Source: Aphrocallistes beatrix
Taxonomy: Eukaryota; Porifera; Hexactinellida; Sceptrulophora; Aphrocallistidae
Reading direction: 5' to 3'
Assembly: GCA_963281255.1 (NCBI GenBank)
Contig: OY725503.1
Span: 1,054,001 to 1,118,000 of the forward strand
DNA length: 64,000 nt
Positions 2,557 to 60,921 of the stretch are shown piece after piece (the stretch's first letter is position 1; each line of letters begins with the position of its first letter). Under the pieces are notes generated by a model. The model did no database searches, was not told where the DNA came from, and saw only the letters and a program-made list of their open reading frames with translations. The position numbers and the translations under genes were made by a program.

Positions 2557-3793
2557 TATTTGATTTAGAAATTTGAACTCAATAAACTAACATCTGATAC
2601 TTGTATTTTATAGTTCTTTAATTTCCTCATTTTTGCAACTATCAATTATTCTATCAATGTGCTTTCTATATTTTTTGTCATATGTTCTATTTTATCAATT
2701 ATTTATTCCTAACAACTCAAATAATTGATATGTGCATTTTCAAGATTATTACTCCATACAACTAAGACCTTTTCAATGTATTGGAACCAGTAATATGAAA
2801 GACTTACTTTCAAGAATAAATCATTAGTGTAAATTATTGTGTTTAGTAGTTTTGAAATGGAATACACAATTGTATAGCATAGAAGTATTGACCATGCTGA
2901 AACTTGGATCTCATGTCATGTTGACATTATTCAAATTGCTTTGCTGATTGCTGTGTCAAAGTATATAGATACTATGCGGGGCAATTAGAGGCTAAGTGGA
3001 GCAATTACGTGGAGATTTTTATTGACTTGACTTTTTCCAAGACCTGTTACAAAACATTATCTTAATTAATTAAGGTTAACATTCGGTAAAATGGGTCGAT
3101 TTTGAAAGTTTCAAAAAAGCCTTGCTTTGGGCAAAATACTTCTTTGCCCAAAACAAGGCTTTTTTTGAAATTTTAAAAATTTTACCGAATGTTAACCTTA
3201 GATATCTTCCCGGATCACTTTTTACTCTGGACCAAATACTTTATATATTTTGGTCTGGGGTTATTCTGTTACCTCGCCCTTTCTGAACCCATATTCCTAA
3301 CATATGATCCATAGTGATATCTTATTTTACACTAATTAGGAATTTATATTGTCATTAAGACTATAAAATATGTAAGAAAATTTGTTAGAAATTTTATTTG
3401 TTACGCAATAAGATTATGACACATTTTAACAAGAAGACACATTTTAACCACGGATTCGGTACTATTATATATTGTTTATATGTATATGCCAGTAAGATAT
3501 ATTTATTTATGGCCTATTGTGCACAGAATTATTCTTAATATGTATCGTGAATTCGTATTATTCACACCTTTGGCAAGTGCCATTGCCTTAGTATATAATG
3601 CTATGGTAAAACTATATAAATTATTTTAATTAGAAGGGAAAATTCAAAATCAAAATCACTTAGAAATTAGATATACGTAGTAATACAGAAAAAGTAAATA
3701 AACATCATTGTGGATAGAACAAAAGAAACTTAGTTTAGCATTTGAGAAAATACATATTATAGAAATTCTAAAAGTTGTATGGAAGAGAGTTAA
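2557..3793. other. Intergenic, with a 130-bp foldback and one repeat end
   Basis: Apart from the foldback at 3071-3200, bases 3571-3605 (ending TATAATGCTATGG) resemble one terminus of the inverted-repeat element at 61926-63375. No gene recognised. Confidence 0.5.
3071..3200. repeat. Foldback (hairpin) element, 130 bp
   Basis: The two halves are near-perfect inverted copies. The left end reads TAAGGTTAACATTCGGTAAA, the right end is its complement, and the centre is GGGCAAA/TTTGCCC around a seven-base loop. It looks like a hairpin MITE. No target duplication was resolved. Confidence 0.7.
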
Positions 3794-5077: not shown

Positions 5078-5528
5078 TCAAAAAGTGTGCATCAGCATTT
5101 TTTATTGACAAGCTCCTATTCAGATAATATAATACAATGTATACAGTAGTCCCCGTCATATGGATTCTAGTTGCTCAATAGCTATGTTAAATAGGCACAT
5201 GTTCAAGTCGTATTAATAACGGGATTACCTCAGATCATTATATAACTAGATGTGTAAATTGATAAGAATTCAAATTGAAAGTACTTGTTCAAATCTCCAA
5301 TCGCATCCGAGTTTCCTGTAAACAGAGCAAGAACATTTGCACTACGTTGGTAGCATATGACATACTAATCGATTTTAGCTACGGGACTCACGAAAAAGTT
5401 GGTCCGGGTCAATTTTTTGTGCCATTTAATTGCCTACGTTAAAGCAGTCCTCTCCTCATAGGATGTGATGAGTTTACAATCACTATAGGAAGTATCTAGT
5501 ATAGGCTAATAGGGCTTCACTACATACG
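5078..5528. other. Intergenic, nothing recognised
   Basis: AT-rich sequence with no convincing frame, RNA gene or repeat boundary that I can see. Confidence 0.4.
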
Positions 5529-6006
5529 TACAGTCCCCGGACAAAAGTATTCAACCACCACAGAAACCGCCATACAAATAGTATTAAAGTGGGTCTATTC
5601 ATAAAGGATTATGTTATCAAACTGTAAGGAATACTCTATTTTAAATTTCAAATTCGTAAACTACACATTCTAATTACTCATAATTGATATCCTCAGCTTA
5701 ATTACTAACTCCCAAGTTAATAAATATTAACATTTGCTACTTGATGCTACTTGTCCCAAGTCACAGCCATTATATATGATGGCGTTTAGTGACACAAAGT
5801 GGCATAGGTTCATAATTTTCAACATAAGAATAGGTAATTGAGTTGAAATTCTCAATTATGAGTAATTAGAATGTGTAGATTACGAATTTGAACTAAAGAA
5901 TGGAGTATTTTCTACTGTTTAAGGACATGTTCCTTTTTTAAAAGATCTAATTTATATTTGTATGGAAGTTTTCGTGGTGGTCGAATACTTTTGTCCGGGT
6001 AGTGTA
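5529..6006 (+). mobile_element. MITE family A, Tc1/mariner-type (copy 1)
   Basis: A 478-bp element with TA at both ends and inverted ends containing CCGGACAAAAGTATTC and its complement. It continues into a longer palindromic arrangement including CCATTATATATGATGG near the centre. The CAAAAGT core resembles Tc1-like ends. No coding capacity. Confidence 0.8.
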
Positions 6007-6142
6007 TATATCCACAGGGGCGTCCAAAGACTCACCAAGGAAGTTGCTCGACTGAGTTTTTATGTTCACTGCCATGCTCAGACTCAATCTGGTGGTCGTC
6101 GCAGTATGTACTAACGTGGGACGCGTAACGGATATGTTACAT

Positions 6143-7428
6143 CAGTGATTCTCAAAGTGGGCCGTAGAGCCCCCCAGGGGGCGCTGAAAGGTTGTTGGGG
6201 GTTGCTATAATGTAAGGGGGCGCTGGGGGGGCGCTAATGTGTTTTGTTAGCAATACATCTACGATATTTGAACCAAAAATGTGTATTCCAGAATATTGAT
6301 GGTCAATCTTTGAAACAAATTTCAACATTCACTGTGGTTGTTAGAGCTAGACAGTACAATAATCACACTCTCAATGGTTTCCCATGACTAAACAATACAA
6401 TGATTAGTAATTTACACTGTCAATGGTTTCCCGTGACTAATTAATACAATAATTACACTGTTGATGGCTTACGGAATCATACCAAGTTGACAACCATGTT
6501 GTTTTTTCAAAACAAAAATAAAGGTCACCGAGTGAGTAAATTATTCTCAATCACAGAAAATGAACAGTAAAAAGAAATGTAGACAATATAGTGCTGATTA
6601 TATAAAATATGGTTTTGTTAAATCTCCAAGCAATGAACAACTCCCGATGTGCCTGCTTTGCGAACAAGTTTTTCCTAATGAAGGAATGGATCCATCAAGA
6701 ATGATCGATCATTTGAAATCGCGTCACAGTGACAAGAAAGATAAAGATGTAGAATTTTTCATTAGCTTGAGAGACAATCGCAAAACGATGGGCAACATGT
6801 TCAGAAAAGTGGACTCACAAAACAATGATGGCTTGATTGCATCGTATAACATTTCGCTACTAATTGCTAAAGCTGGAAAGTCACATACAATTGGTGAACA
6901 ACTTATTCTGCCCGCAATCCAGGAAGCACTGGACGTGCGTAGTCTGATTAAGTCAATTTCATTGAGTGACGAGGCGAATACATATGATGGCTAATGACAT
7001 CGAGAAAACAATCTACGATATTCTTAAAACGACGGAATTTTCGCTTCAAATCGATGAATCCACAATGAAGGTAACGAAGCACTGCTCCTAGCATATGTCC
7101 GCTTTATTCAGGAAGATAATTTGGTCGAAGAAATGTTGTTTGCTAGACCTCTTTTGACTGATTCAAAATGTGAATCCATTTTCAAATTTTTGGATAATTT
7201 CTTCCAAAAAAAAGAAATCCCTTTTGTAATATTATTGCGTGTGCCACAGATGGGGCTCCTGCTATGGTCGGCCGACATCGTGGATTTATTGCATACTTGA
7301 AAAATGCTGTTCCTAACGTTTTCGCCGTACACTGCGTCGTTCATCGAGAACATTTAGTAGCAAAACACCTTAGTCATCATAACAGCTGTCAATAAAATAA
7401 AGTCTGCGAGCGAGAAGGAAAGCTGAAC
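6143..7428 (+). mobile_element. hAT transposon relic (ZBED5/SCAND3-like transposase)
   Basis: The left end CAGTGATTCTCAAAGTGGG is a typical hAT terminus. An opening 144-aa frame (6560-6994) carries a BED-like zinc-finger region (MCLLCEQVF ... HLKSRHSD) and the MFRK/SLLIAKAGKSHTIGE block of ZBED5/SCAND3-type transposases. Homology continues downstream in other frames (TIYDILK, SLQIDEST, ACATDGAPAMVGRHRGF, AVHCVVHREHLVAKHL, AVNKIKSASER) to about 7425, where a 5'-truncated Helitron begins. There are at least three frame breaks and the C-terminal dimerisation half is missing. Subterminal imperfect direct repeats (about 55 bp, 3 copies) lie at 6340-6475. Confidence 0.8.
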
Positions 7429-9459: not shown

Positions 9460-12101
9460 ATGGAAAAAAAGTTTCCTAAATGGTTGATGGTAATCAGTGC
9501 CATTGTAGTTTTCAAAGTGATCCTATTAATGGTGTGGACTAAACACTATTCACATGGTAAATCTGAAGAAATAATCCTGGTTGTACAAAATGGGGTAACA
9601 CAGATAAATAATAATGAAAGTTCAACTTCTGTGGTGAGCATGATTGAGTCTAAAAATATTACTGATGCAGTGATCAACTACACAAATATCTCCTCAGAAG
9701 AAGTTGTGACAGTTTCAAGTCAGCATAGCGTCTTCCTTGAAGACAATATCGATGAAACATTCGTATCAGTGAAGTACGCAGACGAACTCGATTGCGATGA
9801 AGTAGTGGGCGAGGAACAAGAATCCACAAATACAATATTTGCTGTTATATCTGGTTTCGATCTTTCTAACCAAATGATTTTATCAACAGAGAGTGAAGCT
9901 CATTTTATACTGGTGGGACAGGAGAATGATATTTCAGATTCCAAACTATTGAAACAAACATTCGAGGAAAGATTGAATTTGAACAACGAGTCCAACTTCC
10001 AAATCATATTCTGTAGCGATCACATGGATACCAATTTCAACAAGACTATAAGTCGGATTTCATCGTTGCTGCAAAATAAGCTGAGAAGTTTCAAAGCAAT
10101 AATAATCTTAGACATAGAATCTCAACAAATATTGTGGCCTGGAATGAGTAAGGTTTTGCAGGGAAATCACATCGCAAGAAAGAATCTGGGCTATTTGATG
10201 GGAATTGCCCTCGGAGCAGAATTTATAGTTGATCTAGATGGATCTCATATCCTCACTCATCCTGAATTTTTGAGGAGAAAGGCTTAACAGCGATCAAGAG
10301 CAATTCCAACCACCCAGTAATTGCATCTCTTCACTCTAATGTGAATAATCCGTATGTGCTGATGGGTCCAAGGACAAGACCAGATGAGAAGTTAGATTCA
10401 GCTAATGTGATGAATAACATCTGGCCTCGAGGCTATCCTACCTCAGAACTGAAATATAAAGAGGTGCCGACATTCCACTTGTTAGAAGAGCTAGAAACCA
10501 GACTGACTGAACAATCTTCAACAGAACAGAAATGCTTCCGCTTCTCGAATGATATCATTCAGAGCTTGGAAGATGAAAGACCAGATGTTGACTCAGAATA
10601 TGAGAGCAGTTTACCACTCCATGTCACATTCACACCACAATCTCATCGCCTGTCCATTCATCCTTCTCAATTCGCCCCATTCAATGCACAGGCCACCATA
10701 TTCAGTAGACATGCATTCTGGGCGTTACTTCTCCCTGGGTCGGTTGGTGCCGCTGTGAGTGATATCTGGAGAGGATATATTGCTCAAACATTCTTGCATT
10801 GCACGGGATCATTACTGGCCTTTTCCGCTCCCATTGTTAAGCAAGTTAAAGATAAAAACTCGAATACAAAACTCTCTCAAAAGGACACACGGCTTTATTC
10901 GCAAATTAAGGATTTGATTGAGTTCTTGTCTGTCTACGATTGCATTCAATCCTCTCCTAAAGTCTCGAATGGTGAATTGACCGAGTCGTTACCTCATTGC
11001 ATGATCGTTCTGTACTCGAAACTGGTGTCCCGTGGATTCCTGGAAAGTGAGAAAGATATCTCACTGATTCGGGAATGGATTAGAGCTCTCATTTCTTTAG
11101 ACTATTTCTTTCCCAATTTCTACCCAAACAGAGAATGCAAAGCCAAACGAGATAGTCTATACCGACCCAATTGGGATTTTGCGGAGCATAGCTTCTGTAA
11201 TGTGTCTCATAACACAACAACTGCTCCATCAGGACGACGAGATTGCGGACGAAGTCTTCTCACTGTAGTGCACATTAACTTTGGCCACAAAGAAGTGATT
11301 CCAGTCTGGCTTGCTCAGTGGCAATATGTATATCCTAACCCGATCTTCTACATTTCTGATCGAAAGGAAAGCCGCAACTCTGGGAGCTGCCTATTGGAAC
11401 CTACTGATTATTTTGACATATCTTGCGATGTAAAGGATGTATTTGGGGGAGTAGCCTATGAAAGTTTGATCCTAGCAATGGCTAGGTATCCTGATTATGA
11501 TAACTACATGTTCATTCATGATGATGCATATATTTCTCATAAAACATTGGAGAAAGTGATCCACGACAGAGTGAGTGCAATATGCAACACCCTTCTCGAA
11601 GATGGAGCAATCAAATGGTCTTGGGATCCAATGGTTCAAACAAGTATGCAAAAACTGGTTATTCAAAATGAATTTCAACCGAAATCCATCTACCGCGAGT
11701 CTACGGAAAAGTATTGCCCAGAGCTGTACGAAGATGAATCAAAATTTAGTGAGGGTAGCTTTTCCTATTATCGCAACATGGCAGATATTTTTATCCTAAA
11801 GAGTTCAGATGTTGAAGCTTTCTTGGTCATAATTAACAAGTACTTTGAGGTTGATATGTTCTTGGAGGTTGCAGTCCCGATGACATTTCGATGCGCACTC
11901 AATGCACGGGAAATTCCAAGGGTAACATATTGGGATGGTAGAAGAGGTAATATTGACCATAATAGAGGTGAGATCTGTGGTACCGATCCTCCTCAAATAT
12001 TGCATCCGATATGGAAAATATCAATCGGACAAACAAATCCTGAGGAGTGGTTTAGACAGTTGAAGTTGTTTGTAACAGTTCGATATTGTGAAATAGCATG
12101 A
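9460..12101 (+). CDS. STELLO-like (DUF288, PF03385) Golgi glycosyltransferase-like protein; frame broken once
   Basis: The first frame (9460-10287) starts with a type II signal anchor (residues about 8-25). It leads to a glycosyltransferase-like block ending VDLDGSHILTHPEF, where D-x-D may be the nucleotide-sugar motif. The second frame (open from 10269, to 12101) continues directly with the DUF288 core: NPYVLMGPR, IWPRGYP, FAPFNAQATIF, AFWALLLPGSV and DIWRGYIAQTF. A C-terminal domain follows with MFIHDDAYI. The frame changes inside the T run at 10267-10271: one extra T would give PEFFEEKGL and rejoin the halves. There is no intron signal, so this is a homopolymer error or a recent mutation. 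AATAAA lies at 12180-12185. In plants STELLO proteins act in the Golgi with cellulose synthase; the animal role is unknown to me. Confidence 0.75.
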
Positions 12102-18002: not shown

Positions 18003-18036
18003 CATTTAAAAAAATTAGAAACAAAAGTTCCAAAAA

Positions 18037-19182
18037 ATGTCAACTAAAGGTGAAGTACTAAATTTAGTCCTTTTCACTGGGCTCATTCTTCTAAACTTGT
18101 TTGTCTCTGTATTTTGGGTTGTGTACTTTATCTTCAAAATCAAGAGATGCCGAGTCTTCTTGAAAGTAGCGAGGAGAAATCTAGAATATTGTAGTTACGA
18201 TGACAACTCCTTGTTCGAGCTGGTCAATCTCAGAATTCTGCACACAGATAAAATTAAATACTACCTAATGCTCAGCATAGTTCTTTTAGAAGCGCTAGCA
18301 GTCATGTGTGTATGGATATATCATATGTACACACAAAGTGATTTGACCCTGAAATATTACGAAAATATCACAAATTTGGAAAATATTTGCGAAGGAACAA
18401 ATATAACACAGGCAAAATATATTCAAATCTCAAAATTTTGGCAATTTGGAATAACTCAAACACTCTATCTTCTCCCTAATGCACTTTTCTTGATAAGCAT
18501 TTCTATATCCATCAGTTTAACGAAGTTAATCGCAATGCAAATGAAACATCTTGATGCATGGCATAGGGTTCGAGCAGGACACATTAACAGACTCATTGTA
18601 ACTATCACGTTATCCATAATCAGTGTCATCATAATAGCGATACCACAAACTCGACTGTTTGGAATGCCAGTAATAATAATAATCTTCTCTATTTACCTCT
18701 TTCTGTTTTATATTAATGTTTCGAGGTTAAGGAAGGCACTACTACAGTATGCATACGAACGGCTAATACAGTATGGAAATAACCGTGTAGAGCTCTCACA
18801 ACTGAAAAGATACAAGGTCCTATCAACCTTGGTTATGATCGGAATGTGTCTCACATCAGTTTGTATCTTGATGGATGAACTCTTATTTCAGGTCACATCT
18901 ATTCTCTACTTTGGAAAATGCTACATTCCACTCATCTATAACATTCCATACACTCCAATCCTCCAATCTACTCAACAGCAGTTGATATTGTTTCAAGTAA
19001 GCAAGTACGGAATTAAGATAATCACGGCCCTTCTTGGCGTGTCGCTGTGTATTCTCCTGGTTCCGATATTGTTATCTTCAATTCTCAACGCACTTTGGCT
19101 GCTCTATAAACGATTCAAAAAAGGAGAAACTCTGAGATACAATTATGATTTACTTGAAAAACAATTGTTAACAGAAAGATAA
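18037..19182 (+). CDS. Orphan seven-transmembrane receptor
   Basis: Single-exon gene of 381 aa. Hydrophobic segments fall at about residues 8-33, 76-98, 138-165, 181-200, 205-222, 265-290 and 325-350, consistent with seven membrane passes. The loop between the second and third carries two N-glycosylation sites (NIT twice) and a cysteine. A Cys-containing loop (YFGKCYIPLIYNIPY) precedes the last segment. No DRY or NPxxY motif and no large ectodomain are seen, so the family cannot be named; rhodopsin class is not supported. It is an intact paralogue of 1415-2556 on the other strand. The most conserved shared region is residues 220-325. AATAAA at 19238-19243 ends the transcript about 55 bp after the stop. 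Confidence 0.75.
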   Translation: MSTKGEVLNLVLFTGLILLNLFVSVFWVVYFIFKIKRCRVFLKVARRNLEYCSYDDNSLFELVNLRILHTDKIKYYLMLSIVLLEALAVMCVWIYHMYTQSDLTLKYYENITNLENICEGTNITQAKYIQISKFWQFGITQTLYLLPNALFLISISISISLTKLIAMQMKHLDAWHRVRAGHINRLIVTITLSIISVIIIAIPQTRLFGMPVIIIIFSIYLFLFYINVSRLRKALLQYAYERLIQYGNNRVELSQLKRYKVLSTLVMIGMCLTSVCILMDELLFQVTSILYFGKCYIPLIYNIPYTPILQSTQQQLILFQVSKYGIKIITALLGVSLCILLVPILLSSILNALWLLYKRFKKGETLRYNYDLLEKQLLTER

Positions 19183-23831: not shown

Positions 23832-26800
23832 ATGGCGAATATGGACGAAGCTGAGGCCTCTTCTAAGAGGTCTCAATTTGCAAACATTCCAACTGTTTCG
23901 ATGATTCGTAGAGAAGTAGCACGTCCAGGAGTTGAAAAGGATTGGAAAGAGATACAGAGCAACACATTCAGGAACTGGTCCAACTACATGATAGCAGAAC
24001 CGGGGAAAAATGAAGTGAAGGTGAAAGATTTATTGATGGATTTCTCAACTGGTGTGAATCTGATAGAGCTTATCAACCACTTGGCAAAACCAAGAGGCAT
24101 CAAAAGCTATGTCATAAATCCGAAATCCGAGTTTCAGAAATTAGAAAACTTAAACAAAGCTTTGAACTTCATTCAAAAAGATGAGGGAATCAAACTAGTC
24201 GGAATTGGTGAGTTGTGAGAATTATACGAATATTTTAAAACGATATAAACTGTATTTCTAAAATTGCAAAGCAAACCACGTGTACGTGTAGGTAAGTATA
24301 ATCACAGTTTTACAGAGCCCAACAAAATATAATACCTTGCATTTTCAAAATGAAATATCTAGCTATGTACATGCATAATTAATGACCTCAAATTTAAAAT
24401 ACAGTTCTTTTCGGGTTCGGCGCTAGCCTATATGTAACTTGTGATGTTTATAATGCGTCCGTAGGAGCTGAAGATATGAAGGATGGTAATGAGAAACCAA
24501 TAATGGGTCTCATTTGGACTCTAATTAAACACTATAAAATCAAGAGAGGAGGCAAAGAAGGAGACAAAGGCGGATCAGCTACAGATTCTCTTAAGAAATG
24601 GGTTAATTACTTCATCTATCCAGAGTGAGTTAAAAATTAGCTAATAACTAGGGGGGCCTGGGAATATACTATAGTATTGCTCTATTCTAAAAAATACTGA
24701 GTCGAGATCGCGTATTTGTCAGCATTTTTTAAATAATTCAACAATTATTGTTAAAAAATATCAATAGAAGAAAACCTAAAATGATTCCAAATAGGAAAAA
24801 TGGGAATGCAATACTTCAGGATTTCCTACCACGTGGTGTGATTTATGCATGAGAGACATGTCCTTTATAATTAATCTAAACTAATTTGATTCTTACTACC
24901 TTGATACATCAATACATATTTTACGATAGAAATGATCTCAAAGGTTGAAAATATTCTTCATATAGATTTCAAATTCCAGGCTTTGAAATATGAATATTAC
25001 TCAAAGTGTATCAACATATTTAATTTATTCTCCCCATCCCTCAACACGCTTACTAGACCTGCACTATCGGTATATCGACCGACTTTTTTTATTTTTTATG
25101 CTATCAATGGTTTTTATCATGGGTGATAGATTCTGAATATCAAATTTAGAAAGAATATTGAGAACATTTTACTCGAAATGTTAATTTTTTACTCGTAAGA
25201 TCATTTGATCGAGGGGATTTTAAGGGCGACTGAGATAGAAACAAAGTGTTCGCAGGTCGCGCAGCGCATGTGAGCATATTATTAATAATATTATTAATAA
25301 AATCAAAATTGCATAAGACCATTACTACGTAGTAATGACTGGTTTTATGTAATTATATTTCTGAAATAAACAACGTAGATCTAGAGTTGATGCTGCAGAC
25401 TTTAGTTCTACCTATATTCCAATAGAAAAGTGAACAACTTCGAAAAGGATTGGAACGACGGCATAGCAATCTGCTCTTTAGTGGAAGGCATCTGCCCTGA
25501 TACGATCGACACTAGCGTCCTGAATAGAGAGGAAGACATTGAGAACTGTGAGCTTGGGATATCAAAAGCTTCCGAGGTGTTGAATGTACCAACGCTTATA
25601 TCAGGAGAGGATATGAGCAACCCCAGTGTGGATCAACTGTCAATGATGACCTACCTTTCAGGGTTTATTAGTGCTTTTGAGAAGATTTTGTTAGATTGGG
25701 TGAATCGGAAAATTCCTGAAAAGGATACGCGAAACCTTTCAACAGATTGGAACAGTGGCGATCGTCTAACTGCGTTGTTAAATGCATTCATTCCGGAATA
25801 TTGGGACAAATTTGATGCAAATGACCAAGAAAATTTGGAAAGGCTACTCAATAAGATTGAAGGACAATTTCCCACTAAATATGATTTACATGCTAAACAG
25901 ATGATGGATCCACAAGTAGATAACCTCATCATCGGATGTTACCTATTCAGGTTGAAAGGAAAGTTGGATCAGTTAGAAAAGCAGCAGATGCGAGATAAGG
26001 AGAGATTAGAAAGAGAAAGGCTGGCAAGAGCAAGGGTGAAAAGAGAACAGCTGGCATTAGAAAAGGAGAAAGAAAGACTGGAAAATGAAAGACTTAAACA
26101 GGAGAGAGAAAACGAGGCGTTGGAAAGGGAACGGTTGGAACAAGAGAAAGAAAAAGAGAGGTTGTCACTAGAGAGAGAGAAGCAAAGGATAGAGGGGGAA
26201 AGGCTTGTTAGAGAATCGGTAGAGCGCGCGTACAAGGAAGAGGAGAGAATGCGCTACGAGATAATGAAATTGGACTTATTGAATTGGGTTAATGAAATGC
26301 TATGGCCAAAAATGAAAATCGCTAATTTCGAAAGAGATTGGCTGAGTGCTGATGCTATCACAGTTCTGTTGAATAGCATGCGCCCTAACGTACTACCGGA
26401 ATCAGAGGTGGAGGGGAATCACGCGGAGAAGTGGAATATTGCTCTGAAATCTGCTGAGAATAACTTTGGGTTGAAAGCTGATTTCAATGGTAAGTAGTAA
26501 ATATTACAGAAATGTTACTTTTAAGATACTAGCAACCCTAGTGTGCCAGTTAGGAAATACTCTCAAGCACCTGTATTAATGGCTACTCTTACATGAAAAC
26601 CTAGATTGCTACCTCAAACTAGTTGCTATATAGAAAAATCTTACAAACGAATATACTCATTTGTCTGATTGCCTTTTTACTAAGTCCTTACAAACTTAAC
26701 GAATATTGGATAAACTGAATAGTATTAGTTAACTACTTCACGCATTTGTTTAATATTAATCTAGGAATCGAAGCTTCACAAGGGTTGGAAGAGAGAAAAT

Positions 26801-28028
26801 GTATCGAGTTCATCAGCAGCTTCGTAAAGCCATTTAACAACGAAATGAGGCAGTGGGTCAACACCAAACTGTCCACCAGACAGCAGGTCAACAATTTCGG
26901 AGAAGATTGGAAGGATGGGGAACGACTGGCGGCTCTATTAGAGGCTATAGCCCCAGGATTTGTACATGCAGGGTTCGATTCTAATAACAAACAACAAGGT
27001 AAGTCATAAAGCATTATTTTAACGAACTTATAAATTCATTATGAGTGATTGACTTTACAAAAAATTCCATAGGTCAAGAATTGGTGGCTAGAGTGCACAG
27101 AGAATTTCTCAAAGTTTGTCCCTTCTTGTATGAAGACATTTTAAGTGGAAACTTCAAGCCAGATATCATGGCTGTGTACATCAACAGATTTCGTACCATC
27201 ACTCTACCGTATAGCACAGAAGAGTTAGTGCTGTGGTTCAATTGTATGGTCTGTCCATTTCAAGTGAACAACCTCACTACCAGCATGTTACACGGAGTAG
27301 CACTAGAATACCTTCTCAATGCAATGACAAACAATGAAGATAAAATAGAGGATAAGGACAATACATATGTGTTGTGCAATGAAGTAGTACGAACTGCTGG
27401 GAAACTTGGTATAGTCGCAGAAAATTTTAAGAGTCAAGAACTAGCAGAGGATAAGGTGGACGAGTTCAGGATGCGTCAGTATTTGAGCAAATTCAGAGAT
27501 GTGTTTATGCATAATAATGAAAACATTGTTCAAGAGGCAGGGAGAGGGCTAGAAGCAGCACTAGAAAAGAGAGATATAGAACTGAGCGGAGATGTGGTCT
27601 CACTTGATGAGAAGAATCGTGGATTATTAGATGCAACTAAAGAGAAATTCGTATTCACCTTTCCAGCGGATAACGCAACAATCCAGAGCCTAGATAAAGA
27701 TATCCATATCACTTCTACCTTCCTATTCAAACTCAGTTCTGCAGAAAAAAGAGTACCCATCACACCTGCTGTTAGTCAAGAGGATATCGCAGATTCGCCA
27801 TACCCCGCCACTATGGATCCAGAAGCTCTTCCGCTCACACCTACTGAGGTTACTGTTGCGCCTATACTCAAACAGTCAAATATTGGCAGCACAAGGCAAA
27901 AGGCGTTCAAAAAGAGGCCCAAAGTAGTAAGATATTTAGCGACTGTAGGCTTAACTTTTGGGGCTATCACCATAGCACTGATGCTGGTGGCAGCGTTTAT
28001 TGGGCTAATAGTTGTAGCTAGTCTATGA
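23832..28028 (+). CDS. Filamin-like multi-CH protein: six CH domains, coiled coil, C-terminal membrane anchor
   Basis: Five exons with GT-AG junctions and matching phases: 23832-24207, 24465-24624, 25426-26489, 26765-26998, 27073-28028 (929 aa). Residues about 39-152 are a CH1 like the filamin actin-binding domain (NTFRNWSN, LVGIGAEDM, GLIWTLIKHY). Residues 166-263 are a filamin-type CH2 (NFEKDWNDG, NPSVDQLSMMTYLSGF). Further CH2-like domains lie at about 264-358, 460-555, 558-655 and 659-756. A highly charged KERLERER coiled coil spans about 359-458. The last 25 residues or so are one hydrophobic helix after a basic stretch, a tail anchor. There are no filamin Ig repeats. It probably links actin to a membrane facing the cytosol (inference). 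AATAAA is at 28200-28205. The start is the first ATG; an upstream TTG is in frame but not credible. Confidence 0.8.
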
Positions 28029-28199: not shown

Positions 28200-28205
28200 A
28201 ATAAA
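28200..28205 (+). promoter_or_regulatory. Polyadenylation signal AATAAA of the multi-CH gene
   Basis: About 170 bases after the stop codon. Confidence 0.55.
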
Positions 28206-28616: not shown

Positions 28617-28797
28617 TACAGTAGAACTCGGTTAGTACGTACTCGGATAATACGTTCTTCGGTTTAGTACGTACCCATTTCTCAGAACCAAAATCCATTT
28701 ATAATATAGATTTCTATGTAGTACAAACTCAGTTAGTAGTACGTACTAATAATTCCTTCCCGAAGGGGTACGTCTTATCCGAGTTCAATTGGATATA
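28617..28797. mobile_element. Pogo-like MITE (GTACGTACT type)
   Basis: TA-CAGTAGAACTCGGTTAG on the left with inverted TACGTACT words. The right end is degenerate (CCGAGTTCAATTGGATA). Confidence 0.5.
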
Positions 28798-28988
28798 CAG
28801 TCGACTCCGCTTAATAGGGTCACTGTTTAAATGGGGCAGCCGCTTAATCGGGCCACTTTTGGCAGGACCGGAATAGCTCTCACACATAGAGGCTAATACA
28901 AAAATATTTTCGATTAATAGAGTTCTCCGCTTAATCGGGTCAAAATATCCTCTGACCGATGTGACCCTATTAAGCGGAGTCGACTGTA
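28796..28988. mobile_element. Pogo-like MITE (CTTAATCGGG type), copy 1
   Basis: The ends TACAGTCGACTCCGCTTAAT and its complement fold onto each other, with inner CGGGTCA/TGACCC inverted words. Confidence 0.8.
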
Positions 28989-29097
28989 TATACTAAATCG
29001 GATCTTTTCATGAAGTGAAAAGTATTAAAACTCTAAGAGCTAAGAGTCTGATTTAATATATACACGTATATACAGTCGACTCCGCTTGATATATATA

Positions 29098-29273
29098 TAC
29101 AGTCGACTCCGCTTAATTGGGTCACTGTTTAATCGGGTCACTTTTGGTAGGACCAGAATAGCTCTCACACATAGAAGCTAATACAAAAATATTTTCGGTT
29201 AATAGGGTTCTCCGCTTAATCGGGCCAAAATACCCTCTGACCGATGTGACCCTATTAAGCGGAGTCGACTGTA
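29098..29273. mobile_element. Pogo-like MITE (CTTAATCGGG type), copy 2
   Basis: Same ends and interior as 28796-28988 with a short internal deletion. A solo left end of the same family lies just before it at 29069-29090. Confidence 0.8.
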
Positions 29274-29279
29274 TATATA

Positions 29280-29466
29280 TACAGTCGACTCCGCTTAATA
29301 GGGCCACTGTTTAATCGGGTCAACCGCTTAATTGGGCCACTTTTGGCAGGACCGGAATAGCTCTCACACATAGAAGCTAATACAAAATATTTTCGGTTAA
29401 TAGGGTTCTCCGCTTAATCGGGGCAAAATGTTCTCTGACCGATGTGGCCCTATTAAGCGGAGTCGA

Positions 29467-29471
<5 letters not shown>
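29280..29471. mobile_element. Pogo-like MITE (CTTAATCGGG type), copy 3
   Basis: Full copy between TA dinucleotides in the TA microsatellite of the Helitron. Nearly identical to 58162-58353. Confidence 0.8.
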
Positions 29472-29501
<30 letters not shown>

Positions 29502-36826: not shown

Positions 36827-37605
36827 CTTTTTGGTTGTCCTTTTAGTGAAAAAGTCAATTTGATTCATAACTCTTTGCAATAGTGTGGCAACTGTGACAC
36901 AATTTACAATTATCATTATTAAGTATCGTATGTGCAATTGAACTTTGGAGCAGTTCTAATGTCATCATCTTTCTCTCCAAATCAATGATAATTTAGCTTC
37001 ATCGATTCCCTTGGGAGAGCGAAATGATGTCCTTTTTTCATCCTTACTCAATAATGAAAACTGAAATAATCTGGTTATTTGCTCCGAACGACAGAGTAGC
37101 TGGATAGCACTTCTGGCATTAGGAAAATCTTGCATACCTACATGCCAACCGTCCCGGGGGTTTTTCACTCTTCTCCTGAGCTAATTTTGACAAGTGTCCC
37201 GTTTTTACATGAAATCTCCCTATGTCCGTTTTTTGGGATTCCGTGTATAATACCTTTCTGATGCGTCCCGCTTTTATCATCAGGTTGACATGTATGATCT
37301 TGACTAATGGCAACCACGTTAAGCTTAAGGTATTCGGGCAATTCTTTTGATGGACCCATATAAATTTCGTCGAAGATAACGACAAAGGTTTATTTTTGCA
37401 TTCGGGGCAGGAAAATCGTCACTGGACATGTTCTCTGGACTTTTCAATATGTGGATTTATCATACAGTTTCGAAAAGGCGATATGCAGAAGTAACACCCG
37501 TAAAAACCCTAGATCAACCGTTGAAACTAGTTTCCAGCATATTTTTGTGATCTATTCACTTTATTTACGATATATTGTATACATAAATAAATAAATAATG
37601 TATCA
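36827..37605. other. Decayed coding-like sequence, unidentified
   Basis: Minus-strand frames between 36830 and 37385 read like eroded protein (for example GRFHVKTGHLSKLAQEKSEK), but I do not recognise a family. They may belong to the neighbouring inverted-end element. From 37386 to 37605 nothing is seen. Confidence 0.3.
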
Positions 37606-38076
37606 TACAGTTGCGGAAATAAAATATTCGGAATTATGTGTAATTACATGTGTAATTACACGTGTAATTACACGTGTAATTACATGTGTAATTACACATG
37701 TAATTACATGTGTAATTACATGTGTAATTACATGTGTAATTACAAGTGTAATTACATGTGTAATTACAAGTGTAATTACATGTGTAATTACACGTGTAAT
37801 TACATGTGTAATTACATGTGTAATTACATGTGTAATTACACGTGTAATTACATGTGTAATTACATGTGTAATTACATGTGTAATTACATGTGTAATTACA
37901 TGTGTAATTACACGTGTAATTACATGTGTAATTACATGTGTAATTACACGTGTAATTACATGTGTAATTACATGTGTAATTACATGTGTAATTACACGTG
38001 TAATTACATGTGTAATTACACATGTAATTTCACATGTAATTATACATAATTCCGAATATTTTATTTCCGCAACTGT
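37606..38076. repeat. Palindromic 12-bp minisatellite bounded by inverted repeats
   Basis: The inner array (about 37637-38040) is some 33 copies of TGTAATTACAYG, each containing the palindrome TGTAATTACA; the variable position is mainly C or T. It is flanked by exact inverted ends that include TTGCGGAAATAAAATATTCG. The whole block can fold on itself in many registers. Both strands read as open frames only because the unit is a multiple of three. Confidence 0.9.
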
Positions 38077-38152
38077 CGTTCAACCAAACCCAGACCTATA
38101 GCCATAAAGACAAACAATCTTTTGAGCAGTAGCAAATTTTAAGGTGTCAATA

Positions 38153-40077: not shown

Positions 40078-43000
40078 ATGATTGTACTACTACGGTGTAT
40101 AGCTATATTATTACTAAGTTGCTTCTTCTATAGACAAGGTAATGCATTTATTAGTATATAATTCTACGATCCTTTTCATAAACCTAATTTCTCCAAATTT
40201 CATAATTATTATTTCTTTGATATTTAGCACTAGCAGAATGCACTACATAGTATGTATACTACAGTATAATTTAGTTACACGAACGCACTTGGCGGACTTC
40301 CATAGCGCAGCTAGTGAACACTTCGTGTTCACAGAATCTCCTTACGTGTTCCTGGGAATGTAGACAAATTCAGAAACCTCTACTGGGGTGATTAATATTG
40401 ATACTTCCACTGATCCATTTCAAATTTGTTTATTTTATGAATGTATTAGAAGCAAAAAAACGAACATAAGATCGAACATGCCCTACTTAATATACGGCTA
40501 TATATGTCACCGAGAAGGCCATAAAACGAAGAGGCCAGTTTTAACAAAGTCAAAATTTAATTAGACCGATAATCAAAAACCGCTTCCGATAGACATTTGA
40601 AATGTATTATTACCATATACAAACATTATATCAGAGTATCCAATTCCGCTATCAAAAATTTGATATGTCATCATGTAATTGTGCAATAGGCTCTATTTAG
40701 AACTGAAAATGTTGCTGTTCCAGCTCATATTAAACATCATTATCTGCATTTCTAATGCCTGATTTTTTTGATAGAGCAACAATAGGAAAACCTCAAGCCA
40801 AAAAATCTGAAAATTTAGTTGTAATGTCTATGCATTCCTCAGTTGCTATGGAAACAAAAAATTACTTTTTTAAGCCATAACTGGAAAAGTATAGATCGTA
40901 GACACTAAGAAATTATACCATTTAATCCGTAATCTATTACTTCCTATATGAGAATAATAATATTCACATGTCTATTTTTAATAAGTTCTGAGTTATCTAG
41001 GATTTTATCATGATCTATAGAGAAGTAATGAGATGTGACAAAATCCTAGATAACTCAGAACTTATTGAAAATAGACATGTGAATATTATTATTCTCATAT
41101 AGGAAGTAATAATTTACGGATTAAATGGTATAATTTCTTAGTGTCTACGATCTATACTTTTCCAGTTATGGCTTAAACATGTAATTTTTTGTTTCCATAG
41201 CAACTGAGGAATGCATAGACAATACAACTAAAATTTTCAGATCTTTTGGCTTAAGGTCTTCATATTGTTGCTCTATCAAAAAATCAAGCATTAGAAATGC
41301 AGATAATGATGTTTAATATGAGCTGGAACAGCAACATTTTCAGTTCTAAATAGAGCCTATAGCACAATCACATGATGACATATCAAATTTTTGACTGTGG
41401 AATTGGATACTCTGATATAATGTTTGTTTCTGGTAATAATACATTTCAAATGTCTATCGGAAGCGGTTTTTGATTTATCGGTCTAATTAAATATTGACTT
41501 TGTTAAAACTGGCCTCTTCGTTTTATGGCCTTCTCGGAGACATATATAGCCGTATATTAAGTAGGCCGTGGATAGAAATACGATATTTTGAATCTACACC
41601 CTTAAAAACAGGTCAACAGTTGAGAGTTAGTCTCTTGCTTATTTTTAGGATTTGTTTACTTTATGGATCTATTGTAAACCAAACCAAATTTTTATCATAG
41701 ATTATTTCGAAATTGCGATATTCGAATCTACTCCCCTAAAACCGCCATATTAACTGTTGGAAGCTAGTCTCTAGCATAGTCTTCAAAATTCGCCAGGAGT
41801 TGTAAAAATATGTATATAAAGTTGTGAAAATGTATGCTTTTTTATTGCAACACGCAAATAAAATTAAGACATCTATGCAAGTTATTGGTTTGAAGTATTA
41901 ATAACAATGACAATATATTGTAGTGCCATACATTGATTTATATTGTGAGAGTGAAACTATATATTGTATAGATAAGATGTTAAAAATTGGTTTCTGTTTT
42001 CTTGCAGTGTAAAGTAATTCGTAACAGGACCTGTTACGAATTACTTCAAATATAGGATTTCTAAAAACTTGATATTTATTGCACTACGTTGATACCTTTT
42101 GGAGATTAAGACAACCACTTGTATATAACGGTCACCTGTGTATAACGGCCAATTTTGTCCAGTCCCTCGGGTGGCCGTTATATACAGGTTCCACTGTACT
42201 TATAATTTTCTACCTAATAATTACATCATGCCTAAGAGGAAGTTTTGCTACGAGGGGGATCTATATCCTTTTTATCACTTCATTTATTACTACCATTTCA
42301 CTTGTGCCAGTGTTTGTATCAGTATTACAGCTTAACTATTGAATCAATAACGTATTTAGCAAACTGTATCTAGCGTCGTTTTTATAATCTAGGAACATAA
42401 CCCCACTATTCTCATTGAACTTACGTCTTGCCGTTCGCGATTTTGCCATTCGCGGCAATTCTCATGAACGTAACCCCCGCGAACGGCGAGGGATACCTGT
42501 ATATAAATAAGATAAAGATGTCTTAAAAGCAGTTTCAAATTTTAACTACAGAATTCCCAGTATTCAGTGCCATAGAAAATGGCTGGGAGACATCCTCAAT
42601 ATCGGGGACACTGTGTCCCCACTGGGTATTCTACTGCTAAGACCTCCTTTTTATAAATATTGTTTTAAAATGCCGGAAATCGCGGTTTAACTTCATATAT
42701 CCGTATCTAAAATATCTGAATTATTAGGTATAAAAGTATATATCATCATTCTCACAGTTTTCATTCATTCATTCATTCATTCATTCTATGTTTAGTTGCT
42801 GGAGAATCTTGTACAGACTTCTGTTATTCAGTGACTTCAAGCTCCTCGTACGATTGGGATGATGCTAATGCTGAATGTGAGAATTCGGGAGGAAGCTTAG
42901 TACTGAGAACCATACTGAAAAATGCCAGTACAATACTAAGCAATCTGAGTGCAAGCGAAACAGTTCGTCCTCCGTTTTGGATTGGACTGAGAGAATATTA

Positions 43001-46000
43001 TGAATGGATTGACGGTACTAGACTTGAAAATAAGTCAGTTCAAGGTAGTAAAGGAAGATGCGTCCGTGTTCAAGGAAATTATTCAGAGTTAATAGCTGAA
43101 GAATGTAGTCAGAATTACTCGTTTTCTTTATGTCAAAGACGAAAGAACACAAGTAAGGATTAATAAATAACAAGCGCGCTTCGCGCGCTTGCGCTGCGCT
43201 GCGCGGCTTGCGGACACTGCGGGTGCCTGGAGTTACTCAATCTAAACTATTTTTGGAATTTTTTTTCCTTTATATATATATTGTAAACAAAGGCCAAAGA
43301 ATAATTTTTCATATGGATCCGAAAATATGATATTCGAAATCTACACCCCTGAAAACCCCATATCAACCGTTGAAAGCTAGTTTCTTGCCTATTTTTGTAA
43401 TTTGTTTACTTTATGTATCTATTGTAAACAAATAATTTATCATATTGATCTGAAAATATGATATTCGAAATTTACACCCCTAAAAAACCCTTGTCAACCG
43501 TTGGAAGCTAGTCTCTAGCATATAATTTTCAAAATTCGTCAAATCGTGTGAAAATATGTATATAAAGGTGTGAAAATATACAAATAACCTTTTTACTGCC
43601 ATACACTATAATATATAATTGAGACATTTATATAAGTTATTGCTTTGAAGTATTAATAACAATGACAGCCTACAATATTATCGTATAATGATTTCTATTG
43701 TGAGAGTAAAGCCGTACATAGTATCGTGTAGAAAAGGTGTGAAAAATTGTTTTCCATTTTTTTTGCAGAGGTGTGAAAATTTCGCTTAGCTTTTCGAACT
43801 TAATCCTAGATTCATCATTTGACACCTACATGCCAATTTTCGTATCTCTACGACTTGCCAATTCTTCAATCAATTCGGACAAACAAACAAACAAACAAAA
43901 AAAATCCTAGTATTTTAATATATAAGATTTTAGTAAAATGTGCCCAATTTACTAATCAAAACCAAATATAAAAGTAAATGATTTAAGACTATTTATATCG
44001 AAAGATTTGGGTTACTCAGATTAATGCAGAATTGAAACTCCAGATAAATATTAATTTTAGAGAATTATCCAAACATAAGTTTACTCTGTTTTACATTCTT
44101 TTAGACGATTCAACTTCATGTCAGTGTGCAATGCTATCTTCTACTACTAATACTACAACTATTAGAACTACTAATAGTACTCCTGTGACTTCTGGTAATT
44201 TTACATTTTGCTTAGGATAACAATGTTCTTATATTTTAAATCACCGCTTTAATGCTCTCACATAATCAGGTCACATTATCACTTTTACATTATTCATATT
44301 AAAGTCCCGCTTTGTTCGTCTAATCCATAATTGGAAATTTATAATTAATACTGCCATAATGAAGTAGATTCAAATTCCATTTTAAAAAATACAAAGAAAA
44401 ATATGTGACATTCTTATTGATTTTAGGTGTTCTCTTATTGGAAATTAACCTACGTTTTAATGAAGAAGCAATGAGTTGCAATTTTTGTGTATTGAAGGAA
44501 TTTATGCTTTTGACTTGGAAAAAGGAATCAATAGTGGAGTCAATAGTTTACATATTTAAATGGATGAGTGACTATGTCACTCGAATTAGTCTTGTTGATA
44601 TGTTTACTATTACTAGTGATTAAACTGCACTAAAATGTAATGCCAATATAGTATGCCAAACATAACTTTATGGTTAACGGCACTTAGTAAAGATATGATA
44701 AATATTTTCCTCTATTTACGAATAATCTAAAAGTGAAAGTAAAGTTGACATTTTAACAAAATCTTATATTTAATTACGACAGATCGCGCATCTTTTTTAA
44801 TATTTTCACAAAAGTCTAACAAATATCACGCTTATTCAATGATTTTAATTTGATTAACCAAATTATTTCTAGTTCCTGAATCCTGTCCAGATTACTATTA
44901 TGAAGTGAGTAATGACACAAAGAGTTGGGAAGAAGCTAGTGCTACGTGTGAGGAAATGGGAGGGAGTTTAGCATTGAGTAATATCCTGAATGATTTCAGT
45001 ACTGTACTAAATGGTGGAGAAGACAGATTTTGGATTGGATTGAGAGGATATTACATATGGAACGACGGTTTGAAAGAATATAGACCAATTCAGAATGGGG
45101 GTAATGGTTGTGTTGTAATGGACAAGAACGGAACTCTTCATAATCAATCTTGTAACATGCAACAACAATACATTTGCCAGATAAGGAGTACAAGAAGTAA
45201 GAACTAAGGAATATTATAATCAGGGTCGCTTAATGTGAACTACCAGGAGACCAAAAAATGTTTCATATAGAAAGATTTCACATTAAGCAGACTTGCTTCA
45301 ATATACAAATCATGTATAAATAATGAAATTAGGACCAGAAGGTTAAGTCATAATAAACGAATGTTCATATTAAGCGATCCTGACTGTGTTTAATATAAAA
45401 TTGCACTACTAGTCTATAGAAATTCGTATACATTAATTGATGCTAATATTTAATAATTGCATTAGAATTAGAATTTGAAATATTACACACTACAACATGT
45501 TTATTTCAATTACTTTTGAAACATTGACCGAAATATTAAAAAGATAATCTTAATAAATATATTCTAAGTATAATTTAATATATAGAGGTCATTGGTCGAA
45601 TGGAATTTCTAAACTTATCTGATTTACCAAAATTTAGATATCTCAACAGACTCGGAGAGGAGCTACAGTCGTGTGTGTGAAAATACAGTTACAAACAATG
45701 GGTTTTGTTATGAAGTGATTGAGATGAATGTTAGTTGGAATGCTGCTAACTCAACTTGTAAAAGTTTGGGAAGACAGTTAGCGAGAATAACAGATAATAA
45801 TATAAGAGAAAATATCCGTGGAAATTTAAATAATATGAACAACTATTGGATTGGATTGAGACGAGATGGGAACACTAGTAACTTTGTATTAACAGATGGT
45901 ACAATTCTCCAATACTCGAACTTGGATGTATGTCAGCCTAGTGAAGATGGAGATTGTGTGGCTGTTAGAGGTAGTGATTCTAAGTGGATCACTCAGAGCT

Positions 46001-46691
46001 GTGAGAGTAGTAACTCTCTCGTGTGTGAGAGAGGTAAGTTCAGTGTCATCCTTCTATTCTAAATAATTTTCATGAACCGTTGACTAAGATCTTGACAATA
46101 ATCATGATTTAATTGATGCAATGAAATCAACTTTTAAGAATTCAGCAGTTTCTAATTTGTTCTGTAAAGAAAGGTTTGACAGCCTAATTTATATAAACAA
46201 GCGCGCTTCGCGCTTGCTTGCGCTGCGCGGCTGGCGGACACTTCGTGTCCGCCGGAGGCTCCCTTCGGTCGCCTGGAGTCACATTGGTTAATTATAAGGG
46301 AGATAACATCTCTAAATATGTCTGTTCTACTGTGCTAATCGATATCACTCGAAAAATCACCAAATTTGTCAATTTTAAAATTTTTGATGCGTAATGATGA
46401 CGTCATAACAAAGTGATGAGTCATCATTTTTTGATGAAAGTCGCATCATATGTGAGGTATGTTAGTATACAGATTCTATTAAAATTTCAGCCTTCTATCT
46501 CCTATAATGGCTGAGTTATGCCCGAATAACTGTGTTGCTTAACTTTTAAAAATGTGACAATGACGTCATAATTCCATGATGAGTCGACATTTTGCTCTGA
46601 ACTCAGAACTTACTGGAGCCATAGCCAAAATACTCCCACATGCCAAAAATCAGCCTTCTGCGCCCGGCAATTTCTTCAATCAATTCGTTAC

Positions 46692-46726
<35 letters not shown>

Positions 46727-49700
46727 CATCGAGTTTTAATAGTAAGGATAATGTTGTCCGAGTATTAAGCTAGCATTTCAAACTGATTCCATCTTATTCT
46801 TTATCACCAACTTTATAATAATGCCTCAGTGTGTCCAAATTATGTAAATCTTCTTAAACGAAAAATAATATGTCAAATGAGTGGCAATCTCAACAAAAAA
46901 AATAATATTTATTTTCGAACCATTATTTTGTACTAGTTGGGAATTTATATAACTCGTTAGCTTGAAGCAGCTTGTGTAAGTTAAATTCTGATTCATGAGT
47001 TTTGAATGTTTCCTATAGATGTGTGTTTAGATTGGACTGTTCAAAGTGGAATCTGTTACAAAGCATTCCAAAGTACTATTCCTGTAACCTGGAATGAAGC
47101 AGAACAGAAATGCAGTAATGAATCAGGATATTTGGCTGAAATACCAAACTTTTACGTAAGTAGAAGAATCAGATCACTTATAAGCTATTCTTTAAATCAG
47201 TGTTGGATTGGATTGACACAGAATAATGGATATTCTTGGCAAATTGGAAATTTCAATTTATCGGATCCAAACAGCTGTCCCATACAAACACCTCCTCTGT
47301 GTGGATACATGGATCACTTAGGGAGATGGAGAATGAGAAACTGTGAAGATAAACTCAACTGTTATGTTTGTATGAGAGGTGAGTCTTGTTAATCCTACGT
47401 ATATAATAAAACAGGAAGAATTGTACTTAATTAGATGAATATTTTTATTTTTCTATCAATTAGAGTAACTTCTTTAGAGAGATACTTTGACATGGCTCGT
47501 ACGTATAGTGTACATAGTATGTCGTTCTTCACACAAATACAAGTATGTTAAGTCTGTCGGTTTGATTCTGAGCCTCTTTTCAGCTGTAGATGTGACTTTA
47601 CTTTTGCTTTAATGTGTGACTTCATGATTGAGTTTTGATATGAATAAATTTATTCATATCTACACTTTCTGATTTACTCCAAATGAGCACCTAGAAAAAT
47701 GAGGTAATATTTCCTACGATAGTATCATCTTACACAGTACAAATATCAACCAAGTATCCGAAGTAATCTTATAACCTAGACCTTATGTTCCTAAATTGTA
47801 GGATATGATACGCTTTATTTCATTTCGTCGTACGCAGATTTGCCATTCGCGCTAATTCACAAGAATGCAACCTCGTGAACGGCGGATTCTTGTATAAATA
47901 CTTAGNNNNNNNNNNNNNNNNNNNNNNNNNNNNNNNNNNNNNNNNNNNNNNNNNNNNNNNNNNNNNNNNNNNNNNNNNNNNNNNNNNNNNNNNNNNNNNN
48001 NNNNNNNNNNNNNNNNNNNNNNNNNNNNNNNNNNNNNNNNNNNNNNNNNNNNNNNNNNNNNNNNNNNNNNNNNNNNNNNNNNNNNNNNNNNNNNNNNNNN
48101 NNNNNAACAATAATGTACAGTGGGATGCAAATAATTTATTCCGTCGATATAGAGAAATTTTACTCATAAGTTCAGCCTTGAAGATAACATTAAGGATGTT
48201 TTACCCGATTACTGTGTCAGAATGACCCACTGCTCTTATTTAATTAAGGATAAAAAATCAGTCCCAGGCGCTAGCGTGTTTGATTGAAAATATTAGTGAC
48301 TTGTAAATGAACTTATCCTTCCAGAAGATGATTAAACATCCCATTATCTTGGATATATTTTAATTTACGAATATTTTGTAAATTGTAGCATAACTGCGAT
48401 GACGTCATACCTTGCGAATCTGAAGCCTTACAAAGTTTCTGAATTAATAGGTTCAATAACCCATAGGTCAATAATACTTTTTTATACCTTATCATCAACC
48501 AAAAGTGTCAATACCACCAAAATGAGGTTTTGTGCCACTGTGAGGTTCTAACAGTTAGAAAAAACGATGAAAATTAATATAGATTTCGATTTTTTACACA
48601 TTTAAGGTTCTGAAATAGTAAGAAAAATCCGATGTGTATAAACGGTTTTGACTGTACTTATATTTCAATATTTGATATTTAACCCAAAAAAGATAATTAA
48701 GATTTTGTATTTGTAGTCAGACTATGTATTAAAATAGTACGAATAGAATATGCAGTTTTAACTTGCGCAGTTGGTTTGTGTCACTAATCATATGTAATGA
48801 TGGATTGATAATGGTGAGTGATTATATGTTATTGTAATATAAAGTTATATATAAAGTTATATATATATATATTTCAGTCATTTTCAATCATGAAAAGGAA
48901 GAATTGGGCATTAACATTTCTTTAATACCAATTTTGACAGTTTGGACTAGAGACAATAAATTTGAAATACAATTTTCTTACATCTTGAATGTATAATACT
49001 TCGAAAGTATGCCCACTTTAACATTACAGCCAAACTTGTCTATAACGGCCACTCAAGGAACTAGGTAAAATTGTCGTTATAAACAGAATATAGTGTCAGA
49101 TTGTAACGATGCAGTGACAATCTATAATTGTACTGGATATCACATACTAGAAACTAAAATCACAAGATCATCGTTAGGAATGGGGATCGTAATAGTACAT
49201 GTATGTAGTTCTAAACATGAAGTGGCCGTTATAGACAGTTTTAGGCCCCCCAAGGTACAGAAAAAGGATGTCGGCTGGCCGCGTTGAGCAGGTGACCGCT
49301 ATACACAGGTCCACAGGTTCATTATAGGAAATCAGACCGGACTGTTCATAGGTGACCGGTGACTGTTATATAGACGTGGTCACTAGAGCAAGTCCCACCG
49401 TATTTATCCTTACTATTAAAACTCGATTAATGTTTGTGTATATATATATATATATATATGTAACGAATTGATTGAAGAAACTGTCAGGCTCAGAAAGCTG
49501 ATTTTTGGCATGTGGGAGTCTTTTGGCTATGGCTCCACTAAGTTCTGAGCTCAGACAAAAATATCGACTCATCATGGAATTATGACGTCATTGTAACATT
49601 TTTAAAAGTTAAGCAACACAGTTATTCGGGCATAACTCAGCCATTAAAGGAGATAGAAGACTGAAATTTTAATAGAATATGTATACTAACATACCTCACA

Positions 49701-56642: not shown

Positions 56643-56687
<45 letters not shown>

Positions 56688-60799: not shown

Positions 60800-60921
60800 T
60801 TAAATTACGTAGATCTTTTAAAAAAGCAACATGTCCTTAATTTAATACAAAATAGATCCACTTTAATACAATTTGAATGGCGGTTTCTGTGGTGGTCGAA
60901 TACTTTTGTCCGGGTACTGTA
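60800..60921 (-). mobile_element. MITE family A, heavily deleted copy
   Basis: Contains both subterminal regions of family A joined (AGATCTTTTAAAAAAGCAAC and the CGAATACTTTTGTCCGGG end) without the middle. Confidence 0.7.

Follow-up and report, generated by a model that had tools for sequence, protein, structure and literature searches.

Structure of a six-CH gene and its product

The window analysed in this study is a stretch of 64,000 nucleotides of Aphrocallistes beatrix (contig C17, positions 1054001-1118000), and the genome searched comprised 28 contigs with a total of 100.5 Mb. Five joined exons on the plus strand of the window, at positions 23832-28028, encode a protein of 929 aa without an internal stop codon. 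This protein carries six CH domains, a charged helix between the third and the fourth of these, and a predicted C-terminal membrane anchor. A TAA codon is present in frame 6 nt upstream of the ATG, and the sequence AATAAA at 28200..28205 (+) is a possible polyadenylation signal. All features of the gene given below are located on the plus strand.

Exon 1 (23832..24207) encodes the N-terminus and most of CH1 and is followed by a GT donor site (GTGAGT at 24208). The end of CH1, a Gly/Lys-rich linker and the start of CH2 are encoded by exon 2 (24465..24624), whose phase 1 and phase 2 junctions coincide in alignment column with those of a paralogue on contig C19. Exon 3 (25426..26489) covers the remainder of CH2, CH3, the charged helix and most of CH4, exon 4 (26765..26998) the end of CH4 and the first half of CH5, and exon 5 (27073..28028) the second half of CH5, CH6, a tail, the membrane helix and the stop codon. 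The four introns of 257, 801, 275 and 74 bases all show GT-AG borders, with phases 1, 2, 1 and 1. If they were read through, 7, 23, 10 and 4 in-frame stop codons would be met, respectively.

A Pfam scan of the whole protein revealed six stretches of the CH family PF00307 (229.5 bits, E 6.5e-69). The other families reported at E values up to 10 were CAMSAP_CH (40.4 bits) and CH_2 (28.5 bits), both relatives of CH; the Ig-filamin, spectrin, EF-hand and KASH families were not reported at this threshold in a scan whose filters drop most weak matches. The segments CH2 to CH6 were also scanned singly against the Pfam CH cut-off of 26 bits. In addition, the domains were compared with four CH profiles, i.e. 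type-1 (made from the CH1 domains of the filamins in this genome and of one other gene), type-2 (CH2), the third CH of three-CH filamins, and calponin-type.

CH1 (residues 36-151, 23937..24541, spanning intron 1) is the type-1 CH of a predicted actin-binding pair. It gave the best Pfam stretch (residues 42-150) and scored 170 with the type-1 profile and 13-21 with the other three. CH2 (residues 165-263, 24581..25678, spanning intron 2) reached 67.8 bits alone and scored 153 with the CH2 profile. Comparison of residues 1-361 with solved structures by phmmer showed similarity to the actin-binding CH pairs of an Entamoeba protein (5nl7, 1.8e-35), filamin-B (2.4e-34) and alpha-actinin-2 (5.5e-34), and the match to the actin-binding domain spans about residues 35-263 (35-261 for filamin-B structure 2wa7). 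The segment KLVGIG...GLIWTLIKHYKI occupies the position of the main actin-binding helix of filamin.

CH3 (residues 264-360, 25679..25969) scored 34.3 bits alone and was closer to the third-CH profile than to the CH2 profile (93 versus 64). For CH4 (residues 460-557, 26267..26835, spanning intron 3; 37.2 bits) the best profile was CH2, at 67, while CH5 (residues 558-656, 26836..27206, spanning intron 4; 37.1 bits) scored 64 with the third-CH and 60 with the CH2 profile. CH6 (residues 659-757, 27213..27509) is the weakest, with 20.8 bits alone (E 4.6e-4), below the cut-off, and CH2 as best profile (59). Scores of CH3 to CH6 with the type-1 profile were 19-32, and the calponin-type profile gave 18, 20 and 14 for CH3, CH4 and CH6. 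The CH4-CH6 segment matched filamin-A at 7e-8. Structure models of CH3 and of the exon 5 product, including CH6, were made from shallow five-row alignments of the protein's own CH domains, so that those of CH3 and CH6 are not independent. Their top Foldseek matches were CH-domain proteins, albeit weak (best E 0.071 and 0.021, with no match at E <= 0.001 for either model); among the 37 rows obtained with CH3, 15 were unrelated proteins, all past rank 16. All six segments are confirmed as CH domains, CH6 by way of its copy in the C19 paralogue (31.2 bits alone) and the model matches.

An earlier reading made from the sequence alone had described a filamin-like actin-binding start, four more domains of the CH2 type and no Ig repeats. 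The start was indeed found to be a CH pair of the filamin/actinin type, and the Ig-filamin family was not reported in the Pfam scan. The description of the four additional domains stood in part: all resemble type 2 more than type 1, but for CH3 and, by a small margin, for CH5 the nearest relative is the third CH of three-CH filamins. When scanned alone against PF00307, three of the four were recovered as CH domains, CH6 being the exception.

The E/R/K-rich helix at residues 366-458 (25985..26263) had been taken for a coiled coil in the sequence-only reading, which was not supported by heptad counts. Its 93 residues include 28 E, 20 R and 9 K, together 57. The best register contained 41% hydrophobic residues at positions a and d, compared to a mean of 37% in shuffled sequences, with 26% of 2000 shuffles scoring as high; the paralogue helix was likewise without heptad excess (44% versus 48%). 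The opposite charges were more ordered, with a net score for i,i+3/i+4 pairs of 21 against a shuffle mean of 0.3 (0.7% of 2000 shuffles as high) and 16 pairs of K/R to E(+4) against 8.5 (0.1% as high). For the paralogue helix the net pairing was 12 versus −1.4 (1.1% as high). According to the passages cited from PMC5347031, single alpha-helices are recognized by their E/R/K richness, numerous +3/+4 salt bridges and the lack of a hydrophobic seam, a description that residues 366-458 fit. The greatest stabilisation is attributed there to K to E(+4) among the E-K pairs and to E to R(+3) among the E-R pairs. The single alpha-helix of INCENP is likewise described as having earlier been predicted as a coiled coil (PMC4571873, in the part cited). 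Since there is no hydrophobic excess at a and d and the opposite charges are more ordered, residues 366-458 more likely form a single alpha-helix than a coiled coil.

The tail (residues 758-898, 27510..27932) contains a conserved patch, FPADN..LD.DIHIT, and no known domain. Of its aligned residues 57 out of 126 are identical in the C17 and C19 proteins; the sole Pfam match was below the cut-off (13.4 bits) and the pLDDT (predicted local distance difference test) of the model was mostly about 30. It is followed by residues 899-929 (27933..28025), a predicted tail anchor preceded by a basic flank. This is the only run of at least 15 residues free of D, E, K, R, N, Q and H, and agrees with the single C-terminal membrane helix noted before. 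Its best 19-mer hydropathy is 2.87 and it was modelled as a helix with a block pLDDT of 76-91. The proteins encoded on C17, C19 and C1 (a smaller relative) each contain a single hydrophobic segment, which lies at the very C-terminus with a basic flank ahead of it as read from the sequence, and their N-termini are not hydrophobic. All three are therefore predicted to be tail-anchored, with cytosolic CH domains. A KASH end was not found, as none of the three ends in PPPx. The window protein ends in VASL, and zero residues follow the hydrophobic run in this protein, two in the C19 paralogue.

The C19 paralogue and related genes in the genome

A protein search located the paralogue (L051) at C19:40943-36927, on the minus strand. 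Built exon by exon, it encodes a protein of 1017 aa, in which Pfam recognizes seven CH stretches (255.8 bits, E 4.4e-77). The two proteins share 532 identical residues out of 919 aligned (58%), both genes consist of five exons, and all four introns are at identical alignment columns and in identical phases. The proportion of synonymous differences (pS) was 0.72, near saturation, that of nonsynonymous differences (pN) 0.26, and pN/pS 0.36. The alignment is poor in the charged helix, some of which is placed opposite the additional CH of C19; leaving out residues 362-459 gave an identity of 494 of 821 aligned residues (60%) and a pN/pS of 0.34. By part, pN/pS was lowest in CH1 (0.16) and CH2 (0.23), followed by 0.25 for CH3, 0.35 for CH4, 0.32 for CH5, 0.44 for CH6 and 0.45 for the tail; the value of 0.50 for the charged helix is not to be trusted. 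The GT-AG sites and matching phases of the five-exon model, already pointed out in the sequence-only reading, are thus borne out by a second gene of the same structure. The paralogue also contradicts a fusion of two genes. Because it keeps the exon structure, columns and phases, a gene fusion or a chance chain of open reading frames (ORFs) is very unlikely, and both were rejected as explanations of the model.

The extra CH of the C19 protein (CH3b, 36.7 bits alone) is located between CH3 and the helix, and the helix is shorter, with 58 residues instead of 93, as if the total spacer length were kept roughly constant. Segmental duplication of the neighbourhood was rejected: 40 kb of C19 flanks, searched as four 10-kb stretches (C19:14001-34000 and 43001-63000), gave short matches only. 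The matches to window ORFs of at least 60 aa were 22-50 aa long, in two places (L061 and L062), and are repeat-like at least in L061.

For another gene, on C1 (L054, bases 2858-6191), the model comprises 559 aa, in which three CH stretches (E 9.2e-34) are followed by a hydrophobic run at the C-terminus. It is a probable three-CH protein with a tail anchor, its last junctions being modelled without the support of a paralogue, and possibly a compact form of the same poly-CH family. It has a serine-rich linker and passes the cut-offs of CH_2 and HOOK_N_NuMA as well. Two neighbouring genes on one strand of C16 (L052 and L053, C16:1733001-1753500) encode CH1-CH2-CH3 followed by Ig-filamin repeats, a design described for FLN-2 and Jitterbug in the passage cited (PMC3143143). 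A phase-1 intron was found at one place inside CH1, before the last helices, in the C17, C19 and C1 genes and both three-CH filamins of C16, as judged by alignment for C17 and C19, from the model for C1 and by eye for C16. The canonical two-CH filamins on C8 and C16 are open through that place and therefore lack the intron. Further divergent filamin-like genes with CH pieces were noted on C8 (L064) and C11 (L063).

A tree was made of 38 CH domains of this genome; 26 belong to the multi-CH and filamin genes, and 12 were drawn from the other matches in a list of at least 54. Each CH of the C17 protein pairs with the CH of the same number in C19 (six out of six pairs, supports 98-100 / 96-99), and the six-domain array therefore predates their duplication. 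The third CH of the three-CH filamins and that of C1 form one group with CH3, CH3b and CH5 (96/96), in agreement with the third-CH profile, which was the best one for CH3 (93), CH3b (102) and CH5 (64). CH4 and CH6 are on the type-2 side with their partners left open, as were 13 of the 35 inner branches; the three C1 rows and one control have long branches. CH4-CH5 could be a copied CH2-CH3 block, on which the cross-scores do not decide. Among the at least 56 Ig-filamin (PF00630) matches listed for the genome none is located on C17, and a truncated filamin was rejected on this ground. Two short peptide patterns from or near CH1 gave 487 stretches in prokaryote contigs and 78 in viral contigs, none of them confirmed as a relative, as expected because the gene is eukaryotic.

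Elsewhere in the window, an inverted-repeat element with CAGTCGACTCCGCTT ends occurs three times at 28788-29480, and similar sequence occurs in L061 (2466-2662). Two similar hydrophobic proteins, probably multi-pass membrane proteins, are encoded at 1415-2586 (-) and 18019-19182 (+); a Pfam scan at E 0.001 gave no match for the ORFs 1415-2203 and 18019-19182. Other ORFs contain a 7tm_2 receptor domain (58391-59782, 106.8 bits), NHL repeats (3794-5077 on the minus strand, 85.3 bits), a weak match to STELLO glycosyltransferases (10266-12101, 33.7 bits with a cut-off of 27.8) and a C-type lectin domain (42720-43163, 33.6 bits), the ORF at 45613-46062 being similar in appearance to the last. A short-unit repeat with open frames on both strands, CNYMCNYT-like, is located at 37591-38101.

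Proposed function and alternatives

The window protein appears on balance to be a tail-anchored tether between a membrane and F-actin, built on a three-CH core of the Jitterbug/FLN-2 type. CH1-CH2 would clamp F-actin, and the C-terminal helix would be inserted post-translationally into the plasma membrane or the endoplasmic reticulum (ER), leaving almost all of the protein on the cytosolic side. CH3 to CH6, together with the charged region as a monomeric single alpha-helix, may form a load-bearing rod or spring by which the distance is set. What the data show directly is the architecture, its conservation, the kinship of the domains, the shared introns and the hydrophobic C-terminus. In favour of the tether are the lack of any other kind of domain in the whole-protein Pfam scan, the match of CH1-CH2 to solved actin-binding domains and their low pN/pS, the low type-1 scores of CH3 to CH6, the lone hydrophobic segment at the C-terminus of all three relatives and the charge pattern of the helix. 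For C. elegans FLN-2, the passage cited reports that CH1 and CH2 co-localise with actin and that the third CH is not required (PMC3143143). More tentatively, the three-, six- and seven-CH proteins may represent a tail-anchored family descended from a three-CH filamin, in which serially duplicated CHs have taken the place of the Ig repeats as rod modules, resulting in a length-adjustable spacer between F-actin and membrane.

Several observations weigh against the tether. The membrane helix has a pN/pS of 0.92 (38 codons, 13 of 38 residues identical), i.e. its letters are not constrained, with the hydrophobic character kept, and the tail anchor itself is deduced from hydropathy and a modelled helix. 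The assignment as a single helix is a statistical one: the pairs of E to K/R(+4) (7 versus 8.6) and the +3 pairs (19 versus 17.0) showed no excess over shuffles, and the separate pair counts of the paralogue helix were not significant (12-14% as high). The divergent CH4 to CH6 could bind ligands instead of forming a passive rod, and the calponin-type scores of CH2 (32) and CH5 (33) shift the balance slightly towards ligand binding.

These scores lend some weight to a scaffold, with CH1-CH2 on actin and CH3 to CH6 as modules for microtubules, small GTPases or short peptides that recruit partners to the membrane, a role that single CH domains have in other proteins. The calponin-type scores of CH3, CH4 and CH6 are low, however, and the association of the extra CH in C19 with a shorter helix fits a spacer; a scaffold is rather unlikely, though the foremost of the alternatives. 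The presence of two CH blocks with a helix between them would also suit a cross-linker that bundles actin at the membrane, with CH4-CH5-CH6 as a second actin-binding site comparable to the second CH pair of fimbrin. This is improbable given the scores of 19-32 of CH4 to CH6 with type-1 against 59-67 with their best profiles; in tandem actin-binding domains a type-1 CH is paired with a type-2 CH (PMC7240100). The N-terminal CH pair and the C-terminal hydrophobic helix could alternatively point to a LINC-like protein, with its tail in the outer nuclear membrane, tying the nucleus to actin as nesprins do. The ends of the proteins leave no room for a luminal KASH peptide, none of the three has a PPPx end and spectrin repeats were not reported by Pfam; such a role is slightly more improbable still. 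The poorest candidate is an artefact, i.e. a model that joins neighbouring genes or a decaying pseudogene. This had already been contradicted in part and has hardly any probability left, as the C19 paralogue keeps the frame, the introns and the domain order in spite of near-saturated synonymous change, with the overall pN/pS given above.

The existence of a conserved gene pair with six and seven CHs, of which one pair would bind actin, and with a predicted membrane anchor suggests that CH domains were multiplied in the manner of spectrin or Ig repeats. If the sponge label is right, this would be a further way of linking actin to a membrane that was open to an early animal lineage. The availability of three-, six- and seven-CH members makes the role of the extra CHs testable by domain swaps.

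Comparison with known CH proteins

CH domains are known as actin or signalling modules and usually occur one, two or four per protein. Three are described for FLN-2 and Jitterbug in the cited part of PMC3143143. The architecture of the window protein was not found in the literature on proteins with three or five to eight CHs, tail-anchored CH proteins, calmin, interaptin, Jitterbug and CH proteins of sponges and choanoflagellates, as judged from titles, the start of abstracts and selected passages, with few subscription papers covered.

The window protein shares the N-terminal tandem CH domain of filamins by sequence, but it is not a filamin: the PF00630 repeats were looked for and are absent. 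The three-CH filamins are close in design, with the same CH1-CH2-CH3 core as far as described for FLN-2 and Jitterbug (PMC3143143), the kinship of CH3 having been measured with the three-CH filamins of this genome rather than with these two. Where those proteins continue into Ig-filamin repeats, the window protein has three more CHs, a charged helix and a hydrophobic C-terminus.

Fimbrin/plastin also has more than two CHs per chain, arranged as two type-1/type-2 pairs and accompanied by EF hands. With a single type-1 CH (score 170) and no EF hand reported, the window protein is not a fimbrin. Nesprins combine an N-terminal CH pair with spectrin repeats and a membrane helix, and their luminal KASH peptide ends in PPPx. 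The window protein shares the CH pair and, by prediction, the C-terminal membrane helix, but in the absence of a KASH end and of reported spectrin repeats it is not a nesprin. The sequence-only reading had likewise held that the protein matches neither fimbrin nor nesprin exactly.

In outline, interaptin of Dictyostelium is similar, with an actin-binding CH pair, a long helical rod and a C-terminal membrane segment, and is not known to have additional CHs; the likeness is one of description only. Calmin (CLMN) has two CH domains compared to six in the window protein, and resembles it, again by description and not by sequence, in the combination of CHs with a C-terminal membrane helix, which for the window protein is assigned by hydropathy. 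Its calponin-like domain is expected to bind actin, and the protein, with a putative transmembrane domain, appears to be ER-localised according to the passage cited (PMC2842298).

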